Under the pieces are notes generated by a model. That model was not told the origin of the DNA, ran no database searches, and worked only from the letters and a program-made list of their open reading frames with translations. Below are positions 10,353-64,000 of a DNA stretch of 64,000 nt, in pieces; within the stretch, counting starts at the first letter, position 1; every line of letters begins with the position of its first letter. The position numbers and the translations under genes were made by a program. Source of the DNA: Flavobacterium sandaracinum (GTDB lineage Bacteria > Bacteroidota > Bacteroidia > Flavobacteriales > Flavobacteriaceae); assembly GCF_004349135.1 (NCBI RefSeq), contig NZ_SMFN01000007.1:128293-192292 (forward strand), written 5' to 3'.

Positions 10353-10408
10353 ATTTATATTATTTCCTAATTGGGCACAGTTTGCAAAACTGCTCTAACG
10401 ATTACGCG
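10353..10408 (+). repeat. short palindromic repeat, family B copy 2
   Basis: Contains GGGCACAGTTTGCAAAACTG (palindrome CAGTTT-GCA-AAACTG), then CTCTAACGATTACGCGC. It shares the TTTATATTATTTC lead with copy 1 and the palindrome with the copy near the IS110 element at the right end. Confidence 0.75.
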
Positions 10409-63376: not shown

Positions 63377-63692
63377 TTATTAAAAAGTATTGATGTCCTA
63401 GATTCTTGAATTTTCCGATTCTGTTGCAAATTTCTACATTTGCTAAATTTCCTTTGAAAACTACGCACCGAAAAACTGAGTAGATAAGCGAAAGTTTGTT
63501 TCGCTATATTCATTTCTCAAATATATTCAAATATTCTTACAAATTTGTATCTATTTCTGAAACGATCTTATAAAGTCAAAACGTATTATAGTCGCACCGA
63601 AAGCAATGAAAATTCTTTGTTGCGGCGGGTTGTTGTGGCTTTATACTTTATAGATGTTTTTTGTGTTATTTGTATTTTTGCTCTGTAATTTT
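63377..63692. other. intergenic region with family F promoter block
   Basis: Besides the promoter block (63490-63560) it contains a small hairpin GCGAAAGTTTGTTTCGC at 63488-63504 and T-rich text. I see no ORF or RNA gene. It leads into palindrome B copy 3 and the insertion sequence. Confidence 0.5.
63490..63560 (-). promoter_or_regulatory. shared promoter block, family F copy 2
   Basis: On the minus strand TTTGTAAGAATATTTGAA precedes TATATTTG (63518-63525), a perfect -7 box, then GAATATAG. The same order of elements occurs at 12165-12230. The predicted transcript starts about 135 bases before the small membrane protein. Confidence 0.5.
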
Positions 63693-63694
63693 TG

Positions 63695-63730
63695 CTCATT
63701 ATTGTGGGCACAGTTTGCAAAACTGCCTTT
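63695..63730 (+). repeat. short palindromic repeat, family B copy 3 (interrupted)
   Basis: CATTATTGTGGGCACAGTTT followed by GCAAAACTGC matches copies 1 and 2 up to AAAACTGC, then departs: the other copies continue with (N)2-3 AACGATT while this one reads CTTTACTTTG. The break marks a likely insertion point. Confidence 0.6.
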
Positions 63731-63762
63731 ACTTTGTATTTGACAAAAAAACATTAAATTTA

Positions 63763-63913
63763 TTCAAAGGAAAACAGAGGTGAACTATCAAATCCGCCAA
63801 GTTTGTGACTTATTTAGCGCATTAGTCCTCTGTCTTCTCCTTGAATCCCGTTGAATTGCTTCAAATAGAATGATAGACATCAAGGTCTAATAAAGGCTCT
63901 AAAGAAGTTCAAC
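63763..63913 (+). ncRNA. candidate IS110 bridge RNA
   Basis: Two successive imperfect hairpins. Hairpin 1: TTCAAAGGAAAACAGAGG (63763-63780) against CCTCTGTCTTCTCCTTGAA (63827-63845), enclosing a 46-nt internal region. Hairpin 2: GTTGAATTGCTTC (63850-63862) against GAAGTTCAAC (63904-63913), enclosing 41 nt with a small AGAC/GTCT stem. Position (5' non-coding end just before the recombinase ATG), length and two-loop form are those known for IS110-group bridge RNAs. True transcript ends are unknown. Confidence 0.45.
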
Positions 63914-63940
63914 ATTTTTGTTTATCCTAAATTCAAAGTT

Positions 63941-64000
63941 ATGAAAAACTATTTATTTTACGTAGGTATTGACATTTCAAAATCAAAATTAGATGTAGTT
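63941..64000 (+). CDS. IS110-family transposase (DEDD recombinase), N-terminal fragment
   Basis: The first 20 codons are visible before the window ends, reading YVGIDISKSKLDV after a short lead. This GIDxSK-LD pattern, with the first catalytic Asp, is the hallmark N-terminus of the RuvC-like domain of IS110 transposases. The rest of the domain and the C-terminal serine-containing domain cannot be seen. It is preceded by about 28 bases after the candidate bridge RNA. Confidence 0.85.
   Translation, partial: MKNYLFYVGIDISKSKLDVV

Follow-up and report, generated by a model that had tools for sequence, protein, structure and literature searches.

The region 63763-63913 of the window, i.e., the whole stretch of 64,000 nucleotides of Flavobacterium sandaracinum DNA analysed here, is very likely (probability of about 0.93, judged from sequence) a bridge RNA belonging to a Flavobacterium insertion sequence of the IS110 group. 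The initial annotation had proposed this identity, which is now supported by: (i) the enzyme domains of relatives; (ii) the covariation of a stem; (iii) strand-specific matching between guides and flanks, repeated in new elements. At the level of sequence, the comparison establishes the hairpins and their covariation, the ends of the element, the GC core, the unoccupied targets and the strand-specific, co-varying match of the guides. We infer transcription, recombinase binding and, as demonstrated with IS621, RNA-guided strand exchange.

The RNA would be transcribed from a promoter predicted where the right and left ends join in the circular form. The two short guides of loop 1 match the two halves of the palindromic site occupied by the element, and the two guides of loop 2 the element's own ends. 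The RNA would bind the recombinase and join the circular element and the target at the dinucleotide GC. It would act as an address label for the insertion site, relatives with other loop letters sitting in correspondingly different sites. The features of the window are the following.

63705-63726, no strand: left target half, REP-like palindrome ...GGGCACAGTTTGCAAAACT then core GC; same flank at five of six left junctions
63725-63726, + strand: core dinucleotide GC of the left junction, from unoccupied sites compared with left and right junctions
63727-63940, + strand: IS110 left non-coding end, 214 nt; six junctions identical, flanks differ
63728-63735, + strand: possible -7 box TTACTTTG, preceded, once the ends are joined, by TTG of the right end at a distance of 20 nt
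63763-63845, + strand: hairpin 1 with the target-binding loop, from pairing in sequence, RNAalifold consensus and covariation
63789-63797, + strand: left target guide CAAAUCC (63789-63795) and core GC (63796-63797); 5/7 to CAAAACT, 6/7 to CAATTCC
63814-63820, + strand: right target guide UUAGC (63814-63818) and core GC (63819-63820), antisense of GC-GCTAA
63821-63822, + strand: AU adjoining the right target guide, putative target-loop handshake guide, complementary to donor AT before the core
63850-63913, + strand: hairpin 2 with the donor-binding loop, from pairing in sequence and RNAalifold consensus
63865-63872, + strand: left donor guide AUAGAAUG, reading as the right end ATAGAATG of the element
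63891-63897, + strand: right donor guide UAAAGGC, reverse complement of GCCTTTA (core and left end)
63941-64000, + strand: first 20 codons of the IS110 recombinase (MKNYLFYVGIDISKSKLDVV), including the first of the catalytic Asp residues; truncated where the contig ends

These elements add a bridge-RNA clade from Flavobacterium and its family, i.e., a natural series of re-targeting. Their GC, AC and mixed cores are direct material on the constraints acting on the core, a question relevant to site choice by these recombinases and to their use as DNA-rearranging tools.

Two hairpins and their conservation

Two tandem hairpins had been described before the start of an IS110 recombinase, and they are present at 63763-63845 and 63850-63913, with the ATG at 63941. 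In hairpin 1, CAGAGG (63775-63780) pairs with CCTCTG (63827-63832) inside a longer imperfect stem (63763-63780/63827-63845), with 46 nt between the arms. In hairpin 2, GTTGAATTGCTT (63850-63861) pairs with AAGAAGTTCAAC (63902-63913), with 40 nt between the arms. The pairings and loop sizes first claimed hold on the sequence. The notion of large internal loops stands for the sizes but not for the architecture, each «loop» being made of two guide strands that flank a short apical stem. The latter is found at 63874-63878/63885-63889 in loop 2 (in the RNAalifold consensus) and at 63799-63802/63808-63811 in loop 1 (by reading; absent from the RNAalifold consensus).

The sequence of the window by itself is weak evidence for the hairpins, and conservation carries the case. 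Single-sequence folding of the window was rejected as proof of the hairpins because it does not give them: the structure of minimum energy is instead one long stem (z −2.0), and 6 of 200 shuffled sequences fold equally well. The RNAalifold consensus of 19 relatives contains both stems and the apical stem of loop 2. Compensated changes are seen at only 3 of 31 pairs in these 19 close relatives, since there is little variation among them at these positions. In a more diverse set of 21 sequences that includes distant relatives, 92.9% of the stem 1 cells are paired vs. 69.9% (sd 2.2) in shuffles, and sliding the alignment by one column gives 55.4% and 60.7%. Both sides have changed at 7 of the 8 pairs, with 41 such cells vs. 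14.4 in shuffles. A lack of conserved pairing in related copies, which would speak against such an RNA, is thus excluded by the pairing and covariation of stem 1 in relatives.

The covariance search across related IS110 copies that had been suggested was run, and the structure is recovered in the genomes of relatives. The model built from close relatives finds it in 29 of 398 genomes of the genus (E 1e-6) and in 15 of 397 genomes of the family (E 1e-4), the genome of the window being included in both counts. The model built from distant relatives only, i.e., with the window left out, finds it in 34 of 397 family genomes and recovers the RNA of the window at 8.1e-13. The scan of 63500-64000 against Rfam gives three matches, all far under the gathering scores of the families. 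The conserved unit is about 150 nt long. No clear 5' stem-loop is seen by reading in the 36 A/T-rich nt before hairpin 1 (63727-63762, a stretch outside the alignment models).

Four relatives (L126 in G396, L167 in G540, L174 in G654 and L179 in G501) have, by reading, two tandem target-loop-like hairpins with similar guide letters before a single donor loop. From their sequence, these may be bridge RNAs with a doubled target loop or with a decayed duplicate.

The element, its target and its guides

The window ends where contig C63 ends, base 64000 being its last base, in a draft genome of 4.03 Mb; the left end of the element starts at 63727 and runs rightwards. The genome has six copies of this left end (C63, C24, C8, C20, C39 and C16), each at a contig end or at most 25 bases from it, i.e., the pattern expected of a multi-copy element. 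All six are identical from 63727 over the 231-274 nt that each contig carries. The copies of C39 and C16 have nearly identical flanks and may be a single duplicated segment.

The left flank is the REP-like palindrome GGGCACAGTTTRCAAAACT-GC at five of the six junctions and GGAATGCAATTCC-GC, likewise a short palindrome, at the remaining one. Left junctions read ...GC-CTTTAC, right junctions ATAGAAT-GC-GCTAACG and unoccupied sites CAAAACT-GC-GCTAACG, which leads to CAAAACT-GC-GCTAACG as the target and GC as the core. Five right ends were found with the DNA of a relative: four read ATAGAAT-GC-GCTAACG and one GC-GCTAACT. All five lie 36 nt past the stop codon, too short a stretch for an RNA encoded after the gene, the alternative location that the initial annotation had set against its own proposal; the left end has 214 nt. 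The unoccupied CAAAACT-GC-GCTAAC is present at four places, and a fifth copy, with one change after the core (CAAAACT-GC-TCTAAC), is localized in the window itself at 10385-10399 (GCTCTAAC). From these junctions, the element is inserted directly 3' of GC in CAAAACT-GC-GCTAACG, and its own end is GC. There is no target duplication beyond the short core when junctions are compared with unoccupied paralogous sites, on which the comparison rests since no orthologous empty site was found.

In the window, the palindrome ends a stretch of about 100 bp (63628-63726) that recurs elsewhere in the genus (G045, G070, G007), frequently in several copies. In G097, a left-end remnant (L028, 1503-1574, minus strand) has the guide DNA CAAATCC-GC fused exactly at the core to the right target half GCTATCGGG; this single case looks, from its sequence, like an excision using the guide copy as left target. 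That excision at the guide regularly leaves solo left-end remnants was rejected: of 16 remnants, most break elsewhere and L028 alone exactly at the core.

That the loops hold target and donor guides is borne out, and the guides, first left open, are now assigned by sequence. The left target guide matches the palindrome site at 5/7 and the second site at 6/7; the earlier comparison by eye with one site failed because the match to that site is only 5/7. The short matches then noticed (AGTTTG, AAACT) were rejected as guides against the fixed-register guides. The right target guide matches at 5/5 positions at all five right ends found. The AU at 63821-63822 would be a handshake guide by analogy with IS621 (PMC11208158, in excerpt). 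The same seven guide letters occur in a genome of the genus, G393, beside CAAATCC (7/7, L205) and beside CAATTCC (6/7, L108). Our reading of these sequences is that one guide may serve a family of REP-like palindromes with differing stems. L108 and G393:C1:3468035-3468185 are one element in two copies about 3 kb apart, in opposite orientation.

The 14-nt guide has 16 sites with at most two mismatches in the genome vs. 18 for the reversed control, and the palindrome accounts for only 4 of the 16. It is thus unsupported that the guide singles out the palindrome genome-wide and, five of six copies being in the palindrome, the guide is by itself insufficient to account for where the copies sit. 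Longer recognition, a position-dependent weight of mismatches or a preference for palindromes could contribute. It is even conceivable, though unlikely, that the shape of the palindrome or a longer sequence mainly leads insertion and that the RNA guides are secondary: none of the 12 equally close guide sites outside the palindrome is seen occupied, and a short palindrome is likewise present at the one remaining occupied left site. Against this, relatives at flanks without such a palindrome (e.g., L064 and L068) still match their guides.

A somewhat less probable explanation is that the bridge RNA is genuine but that this copy family is past its prime, i.e., CAAAUCC no longer fits CAAAACT and the copies are old insertions. 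The two mismatches at the palindrome point that way, as does a sister element in F. xinjiangense that has CAAAACC, with one mismatch to the same palindrome. However, the identity of the six left ends over 231-274 nt and the assembly breaks at the copies suggest recent spread, and up to two guide mismatches are usual for IS110 targets (PMC11208160, in excerpt).

Guides, flanks and cores in relatives

Loop 1 is the only strongly variable part of the RNA across relatives. When it is compared with several insertion sites, as had been advised, it follows the flanks of each element. Over 22 distinct pairs of loop and left flank, loop 1 in sense agrees with the seven left-flank bases that precede the core of its own element at 136 of 154 positions, vs. 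102.8 (sd 4.1) after swapping of flanks, and 0 of 5000 swaps is as high. Loop 1 in antisense matches its own right flank at 115 of 154 positions (22 loop/right-flank pairs) vs. 99.1 (sd 2.6), and 0 of 5000 swaps reaches that value; the elements are related, and the swap controls do not count independent events. On the opposite strand, the left flank in antisense gives no signal (4362 of 5000 swaps equally high) and the right flank in sense a weak excess (488 of 5000). In a fixed register, the successive positions of the right guide match in 22, 18, 20, 20, 16, 5 and 9 of 22, i.e., the match stops after five positions. This first set was hand-picked from loci found in earlier genome searches.

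The test was repeated with new elements, found by covariance models and unused in setting the rule. The left match is 156 of 175 vs. 115.5 (sd 4.3) for swapped flanks (0 of 5000 as high); 25 of 28 loci gave a left end (not L121, L123 and L126). At the five fixed positions learned from the first set, the right match is 42 of 55 (11 pairs) vs. 20.3 (sd 4.2), again with 0 of 5000 swaps as high. With seven free positions, there is no signal on the right flank of the new elements (51 of 77 vs. 48.0, sd 2.0). L129, L139 and L144 were kept despite a badly set end or loop, and the loop of L122 was already in the first set.

It is thus highly improbable that the region is a structured leader regulating only translation or transcription of the recombinase, for which the position directly before the gene and the structured 5' regions regulating the IS110-family element ISPpu9 (PMC8450116, in excerpt) could be invoked, since the swapped-flank tests in two element sets exclude incidental matching and the variable part, loop 1, follows the site and not the gene. 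A regulatory role could exist in addition to that of bridge RNA.

In relatives with recombinases sharing 57-73% full-length identity with the L014 enzyme, loop 1 reads AGACTTT, AGACTTC, GACATTT, CACCCGA, CAAACGA, CAAATCC or ATCCCTA, and each variant matches the flank of its own element. The core of L052 and L057 is AC, and the letters of their target guides and right donor guide match it. In Flavobacterium and its family, 53 distinct loop 1 sequences were found by one script; the target guide has changed repeatedly and the donor loop is almost fixed. A change of guide between relatives is already described in the IS621 papers and in the seekRNA paper (PMC11187229; all in excerpt), so the natural re-targeting seen here is a further case and not a new principle.

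Distant relatives in the Flavobacteriaceae (L142, L165, L169, L171, L176, L192-L200 and others) have TT or TC as left target core and AC as right donor core. The core letters of the right target guide are those of the right (donor) core in 54 of the 54 rows with both junctions; joint changes of donor core and right guide are few (GC, AC, one TC), which leaves few independent events. This table comes from one script whose right-core motif required C as second base; L135 is not in it. Left and right cores are unlike in 21 rows (17 distinct loops), where the guide equals the donor core 21 times and the target core 0 times. Most right ends of these 21 rows are real: in 18 of them, at least 4 of the next five right-flank bases agree with the guide; the match is lower in L139, L176 and L199 (2, 2 and 3 positions, respectively). 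In L202, guide and left flank disagree. For one unlike-core target, the unoccupied sites carry TT in 19 of 21 pattern matches, CT in one and GC in one (4 of 5 genomes with a match), so that the T of the left junction is most simply that of the target. Within a single genome, one element has the left core TT in two of its copies and TC in three.

Our tentative interpretation is that equal cores may not be required for bridge-RNA recombination: target and donor cores could be unlike (e.g., target TT, donor AC), with the right target guide carrying the donor's. The 3' side of the target loop would then be fitted to the strand brought in by the exchange, and the IS621 handshake idea would reach into the core. 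In IS621, pairing with the CT core is strongly preferred (PMC11208160), the second T of the core is almost invariant and the two bases that precede the core are those involved in handshake pairing (PMC11208158), according to excerpts of these papers. Among open-access journal articles, only the two Nature papers appeared to bear on handshake and core in bridge RNAs, and no paper on a Bacteroidota IS110 bridge RNA was found; unlike cores may already be in print.

A core letter of the right donor guide that follows the target core is not claimed, the results being mixed: among the 21 unlike-core rows, 11 pair with the first core base of the target, 4 wobble and 6 do not pair. One of these 6, L202, is a mis-hit of the script and has the same letters as L163, with which L202 would count as pairing. 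L168, L170 and L201 were entered manually.

Known systems, recombinase and predicted junction promoter

The RNA type itself is known, i.e., it is the IS110-group bridge RNA; what is new here is the assignment of the guides and the added clade. As far as excerpts of PMC11208160 and PMC11208158 describe IS621, the two systems are alike in: (i) an RNA in the left end, with loop 1 for the target and loop 2 for the donor; (ii) the 5' strand of each loop reading the bottom strand and the 3' strand the top strand (PMC11208160); (iii) a core inside the guides, with loop 1 variable and loop 2 conserved; (iv) a REP-type repeat as target and AU handshake letters in the target loop; (v) a DEDD + Transposase_20 enzyme. 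On the same partial basis they differ in: (i) the core, GC in the window element (AC, TC or TT in relatives) vs. CT in IS621; (ii) possibly the 5' stem-loop, of which reading shows no clear sign before hairpin 1 in the window element; (iii) the right target guide, 5 nt plus core here vs. 4 bp including the core in the IS621 structure paper.

The seekRNA of ISEc21 (IS110 family) is likewise made from upstream of the gene, with the bottom-strand match before the top-strand match. In contrast, its host group and target are different, and it has 74 nt vs. about 150 nt for the conserved unit here, which does not imply a transcript length (PMC11187229, in excerpt). The IS1111 group has the same enzyme superfamily and an RNA-guided logic, but its RNA comes after the gene with the guide order reversed, whereas the RNA is before the gene here; natural re-direction between relatives is described for IS1111-type elements (both from excerpts of PMC11187229). 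The transposase of ISCro4 (9t56) is homologous over most of the enzyme (2.1e-23), only the enzyme sequence being compared.

The recombinase of the window element is unassembled, i.e., represented only by the 20 codons and by C-terminal pieces. Full-length relatives contain the Pfam domains DEDD_Tnp_IS110 and Transposase_20 (3 of 3 scanned). The only solved structures matched by the enzyme of a relative, homologous over its length, are the IS621 and ISCro4 transposases. D11, E64, D104, D107 and S252 are invariant in four of four relatives, and we take them to be the catalytic D, E, D, D and Ser, following the IS621 residue numbering, placed with the match to the solved transposases.

When the right and left ends are joined, they read TTG-N20-TTACTTTG (motif spacing), which is close to the Bacteroidota promoter type. 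From this sequence, a promoter would be formed across the joined ends in the circular form; IS110 circles are reported to form a promoter at their joined ends (PMC11208160, in excerpt).

The IS110 copy of contig C41 was rejected as the same element: neither the left end nor the gene of a relative, searched as DNA against the genome, retrieves C41, and the region upstream of this copy reads differently. It is a second, unrelated IS110 recombinase of the same genome (L003, G000:C41, 3394-4434, minus strand; PF01548, 85.4 bits), upstream of which a stretch of about 120 nt is, by reading, tandemly repeated.
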